Shown here piece by piece: positions 819 to 60,625 of a stretch of DNA of 64,000 nt. The position numbers and the translations under genes were made by a program. The DNA comes from Candidatus Melainabacteria bacterium (lineage in GTDB: Bacteria > Cyanobacteriota > Vampirovibrionia > 2-02-FULL-35-15). Below the pieces are notes generated by a model. The model had not been told where the DNA came from, did no database searches, and worked only from the letters and a program-made list of their open reading frames with translations. The DNA lies in the NCBI GenBank assembly GCA_016201905.1, contig JACQBQ010000018.1, positions 79,971 to 143,970 on the forward strand. The letters run 5' to 3'. Numbering within the stretch: position 1 is the stretch's first letter; every line of letters begins with the position of its first letter.

Positions 819-1943
819 ATGGATATAAAACAATTAATCACTGAAATAGCCTTTGACCTTGGTTTTGATGCTGTTGGCATTACAGTAGCTGATGATTTAG
901 AAAAATCAAATGAGCATTTTATACGGTGGAGAGAAAAAGGATTTGCTGGAGATATGAAATATCTTCTCAGAGAAAACCCAATAAATGCAAAGCCAAAACA
1001 AATTCTTCCGGAAGCTAAATCAGTAATTAGCTTGCTTGTAAATTATTACACAGAACCACCCAGCGATCCTGGAGCTAACTATGGGAGGGTTGCAGCTTAT
1101 GCGGTAGGGCTAGATTATCATAAGGTCTTAAGAAAAAAAATAAGACAATTTCAAGAAAAGATTGAGAAAAATATTGGTAAACACTTTCTTTCAAGAGGTT
1201 TTTCTGACTCTGTGCCATTGCTTGAAAAGTCATTTGCAAGGAATTCTGGCTTAGGTTTTTTTGGAAAACATACTTTAATTATTAATAAACCATTTGGCTC
1301 TTATTTTTTTATATGTGAGTTAATCTCAGATCTTGAAATTGAAACTACCCATGAAATCTCTGGCACATGTGGACAGTGTACAAGGTGCAAGGATATTTGC
1401 CCGACTAGTGCTTTAGATAATGAATATCAGCTTGATGCAAGGCTTTGCATTTCGTATTTAACCATTGAAAATAAAGAAAACATTCCACTTGAATTAAGAG
1501 AAAAAATAGGACCGTGGGTTTTTGGCTGTGACTTATGTCAGATGATTTGTCCTTATAATAAAGAAATTAAATCTACAAATTGGGAAGAGTTTAAACCAGA
1601 GTCAGGAGCTAGCCACTGGTTGAGCTTAAAAGAGATTTTAAGTATTAAATCTGAAAAAGAATTTCACGACAAGTTTTGTCATACACCACTTACCAGGCCA
1701 AAAAGGTCTGGGCTTTTAAGAAATGCAGCTGTTGTTGCAGGAAACAGGCTGGCAGAAAATGTTTTACCGGAGCTGATTTGGCTAGCTGAAAATGAGCCAG
1801 ATCTGGTTATTAGAGAACATGTTTTGTGGGCATTGTCTAAATATCCAGATCGCAAGGCTAGTCAAATAGTTAGTAAGTTTGCGACACGTCATTGCGAGGA
1901 ACAAAGTGACGAAGCAATCTTACTAACTTATTCACATTTTTGA
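819..1943 (+). CDS. queG: Epoxyqueuosine reductase QueG; last ~18 codons derive from a repeat element
   Basis: Two 4Fe-4S motifs CGQCTRCKDICP and CDLCQMICPYN, overall QueG architecture. Confidence 0.93.
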   Translation: MDIKQLITEIAFDLGFDAVGITVADDLEKSNEHFIRWREKGFAGDMKYLLRENPINAKPKQILPEAKSVISLLVNYYTEPPSDPGANYGRVAAYAVGLDYHKVLRKKIRQFQEKIEKNIGKHFLSRGFSDSVPLLEKSFARNSGLGFFGKHTLIINKPFGSYFFICELISDLEIETTHEISGTCGQCTRCKDICPTSALDNEYQLDARLCISYLTIENKENIPLELREKIGPWVFGCDLCQMICPYNKEIKSTNWEEFKPESGASHWLSLKEILSIKSEKEFHDKFCHTPLTRPKRSGLLRNAAVVAGNRLAENVLPELIWLAENEPDLVIREHVLWALSKYPDRKASQIVSKFATRHCEEQSDEAILLTYSHF

Positions 1944-9806: not shown

Positions 9807-10901
9807 ATGACTTATCTTGTTTCAAATCCTAAATATAAAAGACGAAAATCAAAAAGACTTTTTGTTGGTTCTGTTCCAATTGGTGGTGATGCACCAGTAG
9901 TAATCCAGTCAATGACTACGACAGATACAAGGGATGCTGAATCTACATTAAGACAGATAAATGAACTTTATGATGCTGGTTGTGAAATAGTTCGAGTTGC
10001 AGTTCCTGATAAAGAAGCTGCAGCTAGGCTTGGTGAAATAAAAAATAAATCTCCTATTCCTGTAATTTCTGATATTCATTTTGACTGGCGTCTTGCCCTT
10101 GAAGCAATTAGACAGGGCGTTGATGCTCTTCGCTTAAATCCTGGAAATATTGGAGAACATAGTCGTGTAAGAGAAGTAGTAAGTGCTGCTAAAGAAAGAA
10201 AGATTCCTATAAGAATTGGAGTAAATGCTGGTTCGCTTGATGCAAAATGGGGTTCTACTTATGGTGCTGATAGAGTTCATGAAGCAATGGTGGCTAGTGC
10301 TCTTGAGCATGTAAAAATTTTAGAAGACCTGGACTTTGATTTGATAAAAATTTCCTTAAAAGCATCGGATGTTCCGGTAATGCTAGAAGCTTATCGTCTC
10401 ATGGCAGAAAAAGTTGATTATCCCCTTCACCTTGGTGTTACAGAAGCAGGAACTCCAAAAGGTGGTACGATTAAATCATCAGTAGGTATTGGAACGCTTT
10501 TAGCTGAAGGGCTTGGAGACACTATCAGAGTGTCTTTAACAGGGGATCCTGTCAATGAGATTGAAGTTGCAAAGGGTATTTTAAAATCTCTTGGCTTAAA
10601 ACATGAAGGATTAAATTTGGTTAGTTGTCCAAGTTGTGGCCGTATGGAATTAAATGGTTTTGAAGAAATGGCTAAAACAATTGAAGAAAAATTAAAAAAA
10701 TTAAAAAAACCAATTACTGTTGCTGTTATGGGCTGTGTAGTAAATGGTCCGGGGGAATCAAAAGCAGCAGATATTGGTATTGCTGGCGGTAATGGCAAAG
10801 GAGTAATTTATAAGAAAGGTGAAGTGTTTAAAGTATTACCTGAAGAAAAACTGCTGGATACTTTGCTAGAAGAAATAGATAAGATGGTTGTAGAGGCTTG
10901 A
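9807..10901 (+). CDS. ispG: 4-hydroxy-3-methylbut-2-enyl diphosphate synthase (flavodoxin)
   Basis: VIQSMTTTDTRD, CPSCGR, GCVVNGPGE motifs of IspG/GcpE. Confidence 0.95.
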   Translation: MTYLVSNPKYKRRKSKRLFVGSVPIGGDAPVVIQSMTTTDTRDAESTLRQINELYDAGCEIVRVAVPDKEAAARLGEIKNKSPIPVISDIHFDWRLALEAIRQGVDALRLNPGNIGEHSRVREVVSAAKERKIPIRIGVNAGSLDAKWGSTYGADRVHEAMVASALEHVKILEDLDFDLIKISLKASDVPVMLEAYRLMAEKVDYPLHLGVTEAGTPKGGTIKSSVGIGTLLAEGLGDTIRVSLTGDPVNEIEVAKGILKSLGLKHEGLNLVSCPSCGRMELNGFEEMAKTIEEKLKKLKKPITVAVMGCVVNGPGESKAADIGIAGGNGKGVIYKKGEVFKVLPEEKLLDTLLEEIDKMVVEA

Positions 10902-11008
10902 TATATCAAGTCTTCAAGTTGTATTACATTGAACAATTTAATTTTTTTAGGTATTATTAAATACTCTGAAACAAGTAAAGAAGTTTAAGATTGTTTGAGA
11001 TAAGTAGA

Positions 11009-11097
11009 CTGAGCGAAGGATGAGTCCACTGCGGTGAGCAATATCCTGAGCGTCGGGAAGGAAAAGGAAAAATCATGTTTGATCCATGATTTTTCCG
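11009..11097 (+). promoter_or_regulatory. Repeated structured leader element, copy 1 (upstream of rpmE)
   Basis: CTGAGCGAAGGAT...GCGGTGAGCAATATCCTGAGCGTCGGGAAGGAAAAGGAAAAATCATG-TTTGATC-CATGATTTTTCCGG; 12-bp terminal stem; related copies at 13474, 53563, 60539. Confidence 0.7.
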
Positions 11098-11107
11098 GTA
11101 TAAAAAA

Positions 11108-11311
11108 ATGAAAGAGAAAATACACCCACAATATCACAGGCTAGTTGCTACATGTATCTGTGGCAATGAAATCGAAATTGGTTCTACAAGAGCAGAAATA
11201 AGAGTAGAAATTTGTAGCGCATGTCACCCTTTCTATACAGGTACGCAAAAAATCCTTGATTCAGAAGGTCGTGTTGATAGATTCCAAAAGCGTTACGGTA
11301 CAAAGAAATAA
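11108..11311 (+). CDS. rpmE: 50S ribosomal protein L31
   Basis: MKEKIHPQYH, CICGNEIEIGST, CSACHPFYTGTQKILDSEGRVDRFQKRY. Confidence 0.95.
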   Translation: MKEKIHPQYHRLVATCICGNEIEIGSTRAEIRVEICSACHPFYTGTQKILDSEGRVDRFQKRYGTKK

Positions 11312-13473: not shown

Positions 13474-13541
13474 TAAGCGAAGAATATTCTGGTGAGGAAT
13501 ATTCTGAGCGTTAGGAAGGAAAAGGAAAAGGAAAAGTCTTG
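13474..13541 (+). promoter_or_regulatory. Repeated structured leader element, copy 2 (divergent, upstream of flhB-like gene)
   Basis: TAAGCGAAGAATATTCTGGTGAGGAATATTCTGAGCGTTAGGAAGGAAAAGGAAAAGGAAAAGTCTTG; same core as copies 1, 3, 4. Confidence 0.6.
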
Positions 13542-13659
13542 TGAGAACTAAACTTTTTAATGAAGCGAGTCTTGATCCAATTTATTTAGGCAAGCCGAGT
13601 GCTTTGTGGAAAGCTGGTTCGAGGAGCAACGTCACCGCAGAACCAGCGGAGTAAAAAAC

Positions 13660-14739
13660 ATGGCTGATCAAGAAGCCGGTGATAAGCAGTTTGATGCTAC
13701 ACCGCATAAATTAAGAGAAGCTCAAAAAAAAGGACAGGTTTTTAAAAGCAAAGACCTTACTCAGCTTGTTACTTTTATTGTTGGTTTTTTTATGATTTAT
13801 TACAATGTGGGTTTTATTTGGGAAAACTTTGCAAGATTATTTAACACTCTTTGGAGAGAGATTCCTCATAAATCGCTTTCAGCAATTGGTGGTGGATATA
13901 TTTTTTATGAAAGTTGGCATTGTATAGTTGTTATTATTGTCCCGTTGTTACTGGCTCTTTTGGCAACAGCGCTTGTGGTGGAGTTTTTCCAAGTCGGACC
14001 AATTTTCACGACTGAAACTATGAAATTTGATCTTGCTAAGCTTAATCCATTTGAAGGTTTTAAAAAGGTTATTTTCAATGTCAGATCATTGTTTGAATTA
14101 GTTAAGTCTGTTTTTAAAGTAAGTGTTTTAGGATACATTGCATTCTTAAGTTTAAAGAGATATATGCCTGAACTTTTGGGTCTTGTTGAAGTAAATAACA
14201 GGTTTGCTTCAATCGCAATACTAGGAAAAGTATTTTATGATTTTGCAGTTAAAAGTGTAATCTTTTTGTTGATCATATCAATCCTTGATTATCTCTTTCA
14301 AAGATGGAGATATATGAATGATCAAAAAATGACATTTAAAGAATTAAAGGATGAATTTAAACAAACTGAAGGTGATCCTTTGGTTAAATCTATGAGACGT
14401 CAGAGACAGCAACAAATTGCCTATGGTCAAATGATGGCGCAAGTTAAAGAAGCAGATTTTGTTGTGAAAAATCCAGATCATATTGCTATGGCATTAAAAT
14501 ATGATTCACAGATGAATCAAGCACCAAAAGTTTTAGCTAAAGGGTCGGAGTTGATTGCTGAGCAGATAATTGAGATTGCAAAAGAATACGGAATTCCTAT
14601 TGTAGAAAATATACCATTGGCCAGGGCATTGTTTCGCCTTGTCAGGGTTAATCAGGAAATCCCAGCTGAGCTTTACAGAGCTGTAGCTGAGGTGCTTCTA
14701 TTTGTCTATCAATTGCGTGGGAAGGAGCAGTTTCGTTAA
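13660..14739 (+). CDS. flhB: FlhB/SctU-family type III secretion export apparatus protein
   Basis: ATPHKLREAQKKGQVFKSKDL; VKNPDHIAMALKYD cleavage region; IPIVENIPLARALF. Start moved from ORF start 13606 to the FlhB-like ATG at 13660 (GGAG RBS). Confidence 0.88.
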   Translation: MADQEAGDKQFDATPHKLREAQKKGQVFKSKDLTQLVTFIVGFFMIYYNVGFIWENFARLFNTLWREIPHKSLSAIGGGYIFYESWHCIVVIIVPLLLALLATALVVEFFQVGPIFTTETMKFDLAKLNPFEGFKKVIFNVRSLFELVKSVFKVSVLGYIAFLSLKRYMPELLGLVEVNNRFASIAILGKVFYDFAVKSVIFLLIISILDYLFQRWRYMNDQKMTFKELKDEFKQTEGDPLVKSMRRQRQQQIAYGQMMAQVKEADFVVKNPDHIAMALKYDSQMNQAPKVLAKGSELIAEQIIEIAKEYGIPIVENIPLARALFRLVRVNQEIPAELYRAVAEVLLFVYQLRGKEQFR

Positions 14740-53562: not shown

Positions 53563-53643
53563 TGAGCGAAGAATGTTGCGGTAAGCAATATTCTGAGCGT
53601 TGTGAAGGAAAAGGAAAAATCTTGTTCAAAGCGAGATTTTTCC
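53563..53643 (+). promoter_or_regulatory. Repeated structured leader element, copy 3 (upstream of accB)
   Basis: TGAGCGAAGAATGTTGCGGTAAGCAATATTCTGAGCGTTGTGAAGGAAAAGGAAAAATCTTGTTCAAAGCGAGATTTTTCC. Confidence 0.75.
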
Positions 53644-53656
53644 GATATATAAAAGC

Positions 53657-56089: not shown

Positions 56090-57577
56090 TTATGAGTGGT
56101 TAAGCAGATAGTTTATTAATGCTCTTGTACCAAATCCTGTTGGCCATTTTGCACCATTTGGCCATGCTGGACCTGCAATGTCAAGATGTACAAGTGGTTT
56201 ATCGTTTGTAAATCTTTCTAAAAATACAAACCCTGTTTGTGCACCAGCTAGTCCTTTATCTCCTATATTTTTCATGTCTGCAACATTGCTTTTAATAGAG
56301 TCTCTATTACTGTCGCGTATTGGAAGTTGCCACATATCTTCACCAGCTTCATTGCCAGCTGTAATAACTTTTTGGGCAAAAGGATCACTATTAGTCATTA
56401 CTCCAGCAATATCATCTCCAAGTGCAACCTTGCATGCACCTGTTAGGGTTGCTATGTCAATGATTTCATCTGCACCTTCTCTTACTGCATATGCAATTGC
56501 ATCAGCTAGTATTAACCGTCCCTCTGCATCAGTATTTAAAATCTCAATGGTTTTCCCATTCATTGCAGTAACGATATCTCCAAGCTTCATTGCACCTCCA
56601 CCTGTCATATTTTCAACTGCTGGTGCAATCATAGTAATTTTACTGTCAGGGTGAAACTTTTTCATTGTACTCATAACACCTATTACAGCTGCTGCACCAG
56701 ATTTATCACATTTCATAGTAGCCATTCCGTCAGATGGTTTTATAGAAAGTCCTCCAGAATCAAATGTTACACCTTTTCCAACTATAGCAATATGCTTTTT
56801 AGGCTTTGCTTGAGGTGTGTAGGTGATGACAATAAAACGAGGAGGTTTATCACTTCCTTCAGATACTGCAAGGAATGATCCCATTCCTAATCTCTTGCAA
56901 TCTTTTTTAGTTAAGATTTTAATTTTTAAGTTATTATCTCTTGCAACTTGCTGTGCAACTTGAGCAAGAATTTCTGGTGTCATGTATTTTGCAGGTTCAC
57001 TAGCAATATTTCTTGCTAATGTTTGAGCATTTGCAGTAATGGTCCCCAAGTGTATTCCTTGCGAGCATATTCCTTGATAAAAGTTTACAAGCCTTGCTTC
57101 ATCACTTGGACTAATTATTTGCAAGTTTTGTAATCCACTATAATCATCTTCACTGGATTTATATTTATCAAATTTGTAAGCAGTAAAATATGCGCTCTCA
57201 GTAATGGCTTTTGCAGTTTTTAAAAGAATATAGTCCTTATCAGGAAGCAACATAGAAACATTGTCTAGTCTTTCTTTCTCAGCAGTGCTAACAGCGATAC
57301 TGGCAATCTTTCTAATTCTATTTAGATTTAGCCTTTCTTTTTCACCAGCTCCTATTAGAATTATTTTGGTTGCTGTAGAATAATCACATCCTGTTCTAAT
57401 TATTAAAGTTTTACCTAGCTCTCCTGTAAATTTTTCTTCTAATACAACTTTTGAAATGAATCCGGTTAGTTCACTTGCTAATTCCTTTTCTTGGCTTTCT
57501 ATACCTTTCCCTTTGTAAAAGGATGCAATTATTGCAGCGTTGACTGGAGGGATAGAAGGTGATCCAATTACTTTCAT
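56090..57577 (-). CDS. Leucyl aminopeptidase (M17), copy A
   Basis: VGKGVTFDSGGLSIKPSDGMATMKCDKSGAAAVIG, ILNTDAEGRLILADA. Confidence 0.94.
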   Translation of the reverse strand: MKVIGSPSIPPVNAAIIASFYKGKGIESQEKELASELTGFISKVVLEEKFTGELGKTLIIRTGCDYSTATKIILIGAGEKERLNLNRIRKIASIAVSTAEKERLDNVSMLLPDKDYILLKTAKAITESAYFTAYKFDKYKSSEDDYSGLQNLQIISPSDEARLVNFYQGICSQGIHLGTITANAQTLARNIASEPAKYMTPEILAQVAQQVARDNNLKIKILTKKDCKRLGMGSFLAVSEGSDKPPRFIVITYTPQAKPKKHIAIVGKGVTFDSGGLSIKPSDGMATMKCDKSGAAAVIGVMSTMKKFHPDSKITMIAPAVENMTGGGAMKLGDIVTAMNGKTIEILNTDAEGRLILADAIAYAVREGADEIIDIATLTGACKVALGDDIAGVMTNSDPFAQKVITAGNEAGEDMWQLPIRDSNRDSIKSNVADMKNIGDKGLAGAQTGFVFLERFTNDKPLVHLDIAGPAWPNGAKWPTGFGTRALINYLLNHS

Positions 57578-57687
57578 CTTAATCTCCTTTCATAGAACCT
57601 TGTGGATATAGTATTTCTACCAATTAAAATTAAACAAATCTTACCAGCAAATAGAAAAAAGTAAAAGGTGTTTACACTAAGATAAAA

Positions 57688-59190
57688 TCAATAATTGGTT
57701 AAATAATTAATTAATGTTCTTACACCAACTCCTGTTGGGCCTTTTGGTCCATATTCATTTTCTTTATCAATCCAAGATGGCCCTGCAATGTCTATGTGAA
57801 CCCAAGGAATATCATTAACAAATTTTTCTATAAATACTCCACCGTTTTGTGCACCAGACTTTCCTTTAGATCCTGTGTTTATCATGTCTGCAATATCACT
57901 TTTAATCTTTTCTCTGTCTTCATCATATAAAGGAAGCTGCCACATTCTTTCACCTGCTTCATTTCCAGCTTTTATAATTTTATCTGCAAGCTTTTGGTCG
58001 TTTGTCATAACTCCATTTGATGTATCACCAAGAGCAACGACACAAGCTCCTGTTAATGTAGCAAGATCAATTATTTCATCTGGCTTTTGTCTTACCACAT
58101 AGGATACCGCATCAGCTAATGTCACTCTTCCTTCTGCATCAGTGTTTAATATTTCAATAGTCTTTCCGTTCATTGCTCTTACTACATCACCTGGCCTATA
58201 TGCTTTTCCGCTTGGCATATTTTCTGTAGCTGCAACTATCATTGTAATTGCAACATCAGGCTGAAGTTCTTTCATTGTGCTCATTGCACTGATCACTGCA
58301 GCTGCACCAGACATATCATCTTTCATTGTTTCCATTGAGCCTGCTGGTTTTAAAGAAAGTCCTCCGGAATCAAAAGTAATTCCTTTCCCTACAATTGCTA
58401 CATGCTTTTTGGGTTTTCGTTTCGGCGTATATTTTATTTCAATAAACTTTGGAGGTTCATCACTTCCTTGAGCTACTGCTAAAAATGCACCCATTTTTAG
58501 CTTTTTGCAGGCTTCACGGTCTAGTACTTTTATTTTCAACCTGTTTTCTTTTGCAACTTGTTTTGCAACATTAGCAAGTTTGGTTGGCGTTGCTGATAAA
58601 GCTGGTTCTGTAACTAGATCCCTTGCTAGCTTTTGAGCTCTGGCTATAAGGTTGCCTCTTTTTATTCCAGCCTCTATGTCTTTAATTTTTGATTTATCAA
58701 TCTCGGTGATTATTAACGTTTGGATTTCTTTTCTTGGTTCATTTTTATCCCTTGATTTGTATTTATCAAACTCATATAAAGCAAGTTGTGAGACTTCAGT
58801 AGCTGCCTGTGCGGCATCATAAGGATCAATTTTTCCAATGCTTGCTCCATGCAGAATCGTGCAAACTGTTTTTGCTTTTTCTCTTTTTGCCTGTCTGATA
58901 GCAGCTGCACTTGCTTTTCTGACAGCAGCCAAATTAAATTTTTCTTCTTCACCAAGGCCAACAACTATTACTTTTTTTGCTGGTATCTCGCCATTTGTTC
59001 TGATTACTAAAGTTGATCCGAGTTTTCCTTTAAAATCTTCTTCTTTTATTATTTTTTTTACTAAACCATCTAATGCTTCGTCTATTGCTCCTGTTACACC
59101 GCTTGGTGTTTTAACTCCTTCAAACAGATTTATTATTAAGGCATCGCAAGCTGCATTTTCTAACTTTTGGTTTTTTAAGATAACTTTCAT
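57688..59190 (-). CDS. pepA: Leucyl aminopeptidase (M17), copy B
   Basis: VGKGITFDSGGLSLKPAGSMETMKDDMSGAAAVIS, ILNTDAEGRVTLADA. Confidence 0.95.
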   Translation of the reverse strand: MKVILKNQKLENAACDALIINLFEGVKTPSGVTGAIDEALDGLVKKIIKEEDFKGKLGSTLVIRTNGEIPAKKVIVVGLGEEEKFNLAAVRKASAAAIRQAKREKAKTVCTILHGASIGKIDPYDAAQAATEVSQLALYEFDKYKSRDKNEPRKEIQTLIITEIDKSKIKDIEAGIKRGNLIARAQKLARDLVTEPALSATPTKLANVAKQVAKENRLKIKVLDREACKKLKMGAFLAVAQGSDEPPKFIEIKYTPKRKPKKHVAIVGKGITFDSGGLSLKPAGSMETMKDDMSGAAAVISAMSTMKELQPDVAITMIVAATENMPSGKAYRPGDVVRAMNGKTIEILNTDAEGRVTLADAVSYVVRQKPDEIIDLATLTGACVVALGDTSNGVMTNDQKLADKIIKAGNEAGERMWQLPLYDEDREKIKSDIADMINTGSKGKSGAQNGGVFIEKFVNDIPWVHIDIAGPSWIDKENEYGPKGPTGVGVRTLINYLTNY

Positions 59191-60226: not shown

Positions 60227-60538
60227 TTAATTTCTCCTCTTAATGCTTCTAAAATAACAATATTATATTGATTAAATTAAAACACGAACACAAAAGCTTT
60301 AATCTTTTTTTATTATGACATAAGCATAATTAAGAAAGCAATACTAAATATTAAAAGATAATGAATTGTTGTTTTAACCATTGTATGGAATGTACAGGAG
60401 ATTAGAATTAGCCTGTACTGTTAAAATTAACTTTGATTTCTTAATCTTAATTCTTAACCTTTAGGTTAAGAGGTTAAGAAAGTGAAGGTTTTTCTAAAAA
60501 CGAAAAACCGGAACGCTGAAAATAGTTAATCAATAAAA

Positions 60539-60617
60539 GCGAAGAATGTTGCGATGAGCAATATTCTAAGCGTCGTGAAGGAAAAGGAAAAATCTTGTTC
60601 AAAGCGAGATTTTTCCG
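60539..60617 (+). promoter_or_regulatory. Repeated structured leader element, copy 4 (upstream of upp-like gene)
   Basis: GCGAAGAATGTTGCGATGAGCAATATTCTAAGCGTCGTGAAGGAAAAGGAAAAATCTTGTTCAAAGCGAGATTTTTCC; nearly identical to copy 3. Confidence 0.75.
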
Positions 60618-60625
60618 AGGTAAAA

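Follow-up and report, generated by a model that had tools for sequence, protein, structure and literature searches.

A modular repeat family, probably of mobile type, in the 5' leaders of genes and tRNAs of a Melainabacteria lineage

In initiation regions of the phage T4 gene 38 type, an SD-like tract is followed by a hairpin and then by the start codon, and Rickettsia palindromic elements insert in frame within open reading frames. A GTAG head is a feature of REP sequences, and REPINs need RAYTs. REP and REPIN sequences are dispersed, hairpin-forming miniature repeats that are associated with RAYT transposases (PMC3116915). The Correia elements, or NEMIS, of Neisseria are small structured interspersed repeats that can be part of a transcript and are cleaved by RNase III (PMC10969869; PMC3049150), and most of them directly precede a gene (PMC10969869). 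BOX of Streptococcus pneumoniae is structured, co-transcribed and built of modular, exchangeable sub-units, and the spaces between convergent genes hold more of the pneumococcal repeats, taken as a group, than expected (PMC3049150).

We analysed a window of 64,000 nucleotides (the whole stretch of DNA under study) from a Candidatus Caenarcanales-type Melainabacteria genome (2.28-Mb assembly, 59 contigs), whose IspG is 81-91% identical to records named Candidatus Caenarcanales or Candidatus Melainabacteria. The repeat family found there has features of Correia, BOX and REPIN but lacks the terminal repeats and the RAYT link. Like Correia/NEMIS, it is a small structured interspersed repeat placed mostly just 5' of genes; Correia elements, however, have terminal inverted repeats and promoters, whereas here neither end is the inverted repeat of the other, the predicted promoter is that of the host gene, 5' of the repeat, and the copies face in the sense direction. 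Terminal inverted repeats, the canonical MITE feature, were not detected at the ends of the element; the inverted repeats found in it come from the hairpin inside it and from chance pairing of A with T. Like BOX, the repeat is multi-copy, intergenic, foldable and composed of exchangeable structured sub-units, but it is start-proximal and sense-only, unlike the pneumococcal repeats with their preference for convergent gene pairs. With REP/REPIN it shares the form of a dispersed, hairpin-forming miniature repeat, although three genomes that carry it (G000, G001 and G003) have no Y1_Tnp gene.

Architecture and distribution of the family

Each copy has a hairpin between GAGCGAAG...CTGAGCG, an SD-like purine linker and, usually, a second, exchangeable hairpin. 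The modules follow the order (G/A)AGC(G/A)AAG, stem 1, CTGAGCG(T/C)C, purine linker, 3' module, ~1 to 20 nt, and start codon or tRNA. The 3' modules are of the types GGAAAAATC..GATTTTTCC, GCAAAAATTTAAGCCTAAATTTTTGC with its close relatives, and AAGCGAGTTGAGC..CGAGCGGTATAAA, and no fewer than three different 3' modules occur together with one common stem 1. A scan with the pattern AGCGAAG N16-40 CTGAGCG returned hairpins with wholly different stem sequences between identical flanks, and the reversed control pattern had no match. Since the same flanks enclose unrelated stems, what is conserved is the flanking sequence and the capacity for pairing, not the stem sequence.

With a covariance model derived from 32 copies, we found ~39 copies in the host genome and further copies in 8 of the 10 other genomes of the family (9 of 11 counting the host). 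Outside the family, two of ~135 class genomes, from a draw of 146, gave a marginal single match. Phage records and viral contigs searched for the repeat contained no match, an Rfam search of the window returned nothing relevant, and a literature search found no description of this repeat family, though one may exist elsewhere.

The window holds four copies on the plus strand. The first is a full element in the rpmE leader (11011..11102; E 1.5e-19 and 87 bits in the covariance model search). The second, which the preliminary description of the rpmE copy does not mention, is a composite (13475..13584; covariance model E 4.3e-10, and sequence) in which other sequence splits the second hairpin and which is followed by the coding start of an export-apparatus-like ORF, ATG 13661; another locus of the host genome (L027) carries the same composite as 13475-13660, and the end of the normal second hairpin persists after the inserted part. 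The third and fourth, recognized by covariance model and placement, stand 7 nt 5' of the accB start codon (53564..53649) and 3 nt 5' of the upp start codon (60537..60622). Upstream of the upp copy is a hairpin alike in style but with a diverged stem (GGTTTTTC/GAAAAACC; 60487..60509, plus strand), with flanks in the style of locus L348 of G009, and upp is thereby preceded by tandem hairpin elements (60487-60622), the stem-divergent one and then the standard repeat. Elsewhere in the window, two neighbouring minus-strand ORFs at 56090-59190 share ~70% identical DNA over several hundred bases, a tandem gene duplication.

The rpmE leader and the conservation of its structure

The first copy precedes rpmE (11108..11311, plus strand; L31 of the CxxC type, translation MKEKIHPQYHRLVATCICGNEIEIG...). 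By inspection we predict a promoter, TTGAAC-N17-TATTAT, at 10929..10957 on the same strand, with a predicted transcription start at about 10964, and relatives L057, L063 and L065 keep the same -35/-10 arrangement before rpmE. As this putative host promoter is upstream of the repeat, the repeat is expected to lie inside the rpmE 5' leader and transcript. A promoter within the repeat, with its -10 at TATAAA, was considered and rejected, because the box is not conserved among copies and is too near the ATG.

Stem 1 of this copy (11017..11047, plus strand, from alignment and fold) bears a 6-nt insertion in its 5' arm that is found in no other of the 32 aligned copies. Because of it, pairing is reduced to AGGAT (11017-11021) with ATCCT (11043-11047) and TGC (11030-11032) with GCA (11038-11040), the most damaged stem 1 of the aligned set (n=32). 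Stem 2 pairs perfectly over 12 bp and closes a 7-nt loop (11066..11096, plus strand, 11066-11077 with 11085-11096), recognized as an inverted repeat and by covariation. Modelled pairing is 0.53 and 0.20 for the two remaining parts of stem 1 and 1.0 for stem 2, and the leader region folds better than 200 of 200 dinucleotide shuffles (z = -4.25). The structure proposed for this copy in the preliminary description holds for stem 2 and for the region, which folds well, but only in part for stem 1, weakened by the insertion. The same description had seen no good Shine-Dalgarno beside the rpmE ATG. This is correct, yet a purine tract, AAGGAAAAGG, lies 5' of stem 2 (11058..11067, plus strand) and is, from the comparison of linkers, a candidate displaced Shine-Dalgarno; its final two G double as the first two bases of stem 2, and the ATG is 11 nt 3' of that stem.

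Relative to the accB and upp copies, the changes that had been described as compensatory, from A-T to G-C in outer stem 1 and from T-A to A-T in stem 2, are genuine two-sided changes, and the covariation persists when more homologues are added. Among the 32 aligned copies, which are mostly paralogous and for which the family-derived model and alignment lean towards the structure, 9 of 22 pairs have two-sided changes, with 50 such cells against 13.8 +/- 4.5 in shuffles, and 98.2% of pair cells are standard-paired against 34-61% after partner sliding. Orthologous pairs in the genus g6 (n=6; the TERKV, rpmE, MIEMF, MSINKL, SMC a and tRNA-Ser leaders, counts summed) show in stem 1 eleven two-sided changes, nine one-sided compatible changes and two broken pairs, with five two-sided changes and no broken pair in the tRNA-Ser leader, although part of the two-sided changes in g6 could be replacement rather than point change. 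Covariation is above controls, then, in both the paralogous copies and the orthologous pairs. G-U pairs on the sense strand outnumber A-C mismatches 53 to 6 (16 to 6 without two ancestral G-U columns), and the sense RNA is therefore favoured as the strand that folds. Taken together, the data support a structure that is conserved by compensatory change, very probably as sense-strand RNA.

Covariation among paralogous repeat copies alone is no proof of a gene-specific riboregulator. Leaders of rpmE are short and free of the repeat in five relatives (L061, L063, L065, L066 and L067), with the start codon close after the -10 box, somewhat less so in L061. In L064/L057 and L035 a variant repeat with a different second hairpin stands between the -10 box and the rpmE start codon, and in L062 and L068 the leaders hold other inserts, unrelated to the repeat. 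Absence of the element from the rpmE leaders of close relatives had been named beforehand as evidence against a conserved rpmE leader element, and to a large extent this is what we found: five lack it, two carry a variant and two have unrelated inserts. The inserts of L062 and L068 are at the same site before rpmE, which suggests an insertion hotspot.

A cis-regulator specific to rpmE, such as a leader that is bound by L31 and governs its expression, would agree with the position of the repeat between a conserved promoter and rpmE, with the stable fold of the leader and with the repeat also preceding rpmE in two g6 relatives. The same repeat, however, precedes dozens of unrelated genes and tRNAs, five relatives have none at rpmE, the second hairpin of the variant rpmE copies is unrelated, and a cmscan of 10900-11150 against Rfam at E <= 10 returned only three unrelated sub-threshold matches and no L31 leader. 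The element is not conserved before rpmE and specific to it, control of L31 expression by it, which the preliminary description had raised, is not supported, and we regard such a regulator as very unlikely. The rpmE copy is probably a general leader module rather than an L31-specific sensor.

Placement and probable mobility

We scored a copy as start-proximal when, on the same strand, an ORF of >=60 aa began no more than 60 nt downstream or a tRNA lay no more than 150 nt downstream. By this measure 35 of the 39 copies in the host genome are directly 5' of a same-strand start codon or tRNA, against 7 of 39 in a mirror control, and 24% of random positions pass the coding-start criterion; the copies are thus predominantly immediately 5' of genes, as Correia elements are. 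The copy before rpmH, which at 45 aa falls under the 60-aa cut, is a 36th case. The median distance from repeat to coding start is 5 nt. Of the 52 copies in relatives, 35 are start-proximal by the same measure; several of those that fail carry the AAGCGAG-type module and come from G001 and G004. Going by names read off the translations, not by family search, copies stand 5' of ispH, nadE, upp, accB, groS, trpF, pyrF, mrp, rimM, rpmH, rplL, gdhA, metK, a superoxide-dismutase-like gene, ligA, murA, ftsE, tmk and ssb, and also of tRNA genes. Upstream of metK in several relatives, four loci (L302, L303, L284 and L246) share a conserved GGTGCTAATTCCAGATAGATGAGCG-like stretch that may be a riboswitch. 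One copy (L021, around 1495-1580, minus strand) lies close to the N-terminus of a ferredoxin-like ORF that continues through it in frame, in the manner of Rickettsia palindromic elements, whereas nearly all other copies lie in non-coding leaders.

With ~39 copies, nearly all in the same direction and just 5' of a gene or tRNA, the repeat looks like a mobile structured leader and not a private L31 switch. That the hairpins are instead transcription terminators or attenuators is highly improbable. They are strong, and an oligo-T lies inside the 3' arm of stem 2, but no U-tract follows the hairpin, and sense copies are found within operons (rplL), ahead of tRNA genes and a few nt upstream of start codons.

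The leaders of orthologous genes are mostly empty of the repeat. Flanking duplications of ~24-57 nt are present at five of ~105 copies, far above the null, and most copies have none; at this size they greatly exceed the target-site duplications normally seen with MITEs. Those of L040 and L323 are tRNA 3' halves (~52 and 57 nt), those of L042 and L232 are other leader or intergenic DNA, and that of L324 is the C-terminal end of an ORF. At L040 (~1440-1640) and L323 (~1430-1640) the order is a complete tRNA gene, then the repeat, then the duplicate of the tRNA 3' half. On account of the empty orthologous leaders and these five duplications, the elements behave as mobile repeats, although the flanking repeats could alternatively have arisen by tandem duplication with slippage. 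Extra upstream leader bases were also considered as decayed target duplications, a reading rejected because there is no enrichment beyond the five clear cases.

A search for PF01797 (Y1_Tnp) gave no match in G000, G001 and G003, the genomes richest in type-A copies, and gave matches in six other genomes of the family. Reverse transcriptase (PF00078) was absent from all 11 family genomes, in a search whose controls gave matches. Spread driven by RAYTs or by reverse transcriptase is therefore unsupported. A SINE-like retroposon, whose RNA would be copied back into DNA with long duplications and an A-rich 3' end, would account for the ~24-57 nt flanking duplications and the TATAAAAA-type 3' ends; but such A-rich ends are expected anyway in an AT-rich genome and no family genome has the enzyme, so that we give this origin hardly any credence. 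The copies would rather have spread by a DNA-level mechanism.

In our judgement, this family, with its conserved structure, its sense-only placement close to starts, its presence or absence at orthologous leaders and the long duplications flanking a few copies, is probably a small interspersed repeat that is specific to the lineage, modular and of mobile type. Its copies occupy the 5' leaders of many genes and tRNAs in sense orientation, and would be transcribed from host promoters and form one or two hairpins. A serious rival is a purely selfish repeat, which would retain its hairpins solely for the sake of its own mobility as DNA, whose leader position and orientation reflect insertion into the open DNA of promoters and transcription bubbles, and which leaves the host gene unaffected. 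This would fit insertions with long duplications beside tRNA ends and at the 3' end of a gene, stems that are replaced wholesale while the flanks AGCGAAG/CTGAGCG are kept, and the one copy read through in frame near an ORF start. It fits less well with sense-only placement ~5 nt from start codons, with the sense-strand excess of G-U over A-C, with an SD-like linker that is preserved where copies are linked to mRNAs but decayed where they are linked to tRNAs, and with a copy-rich genome that has no Y1 transposase. We hold it to be possible but rather unlikely.

Linkers, start codons and a possible portable leader

A GGA is present in the linker of 34 of 42 mRNA-linked copies and of 1 of 7 tRNA-linked copies, and pairing with the anti-SD is stronger in the former (P = 0.005), in a contrast that is small, with several of the 7 tRNA-linked copies from one genome, and partly confounded by genome. 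The predicted fold of the rpmE leader leaves both linker and AUG open (0.85 unpaired across 11058-11062 for the linker), with stem 2 closed. Over 31 copies of the host genome, folded as short fragments, the start codon is on average 45% unpaired, and accessibility of the AUG is therefore no general result.

At groS, gdhA, rplL and ssb the repeat is upstream of a native Shine-Dalgarno common to the relatives; since this is retained after the repeat, the repeat's own is not needed there. The ssb locus (L201) was for a time taken as a natural experiment, with the linker Shine-Dalgarno working without stem 2, and was rejected because relatives have the same native Shine-Dalgarno. In many relatives the same genes have leaderless or very short leaders, and a supplied Shine-Dalgarno need therefore not matter.

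With these qualifications, the most likely role of the repeat as a structured mobile 5' leader is that it supplies or insulates a ribosome-binding site. Transcription of the repeat would begin at the promoter of the host gene, and the transcript would fold into one or two hairpins. In our working model, the SD-like purine linker, a looped-out hairpin and the start codon would follow one another so that a displaced Shine-Dalgarno comes near the AUG. The order is that of phage T4 gene 38, here in a repeated cassette and with a putative function. Copies before coding genes may have been tolerated or kept because they bring along a usable ribosome-loading site. A more elaborate version strikes us as doubtful: a mobile 5'-leader system of fixed flanks and arbitrary stems that would insert in sense just after transcription starts, coupled to transcription, would need neither reverse transcriptase nor Y1 transposase to leave its ~24-57 nt duplications, and would carry its own hairpin-spaced ribosome-binding site.

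Small interspersed repeats are often seen as tolerated parasites. Placement of this family in sense, so close before starts and also before tRNAs, together with its swappable stems, suggests either that insertion occurs by a mechanism linked to transcription or that selection favours structured leaders that are portable.
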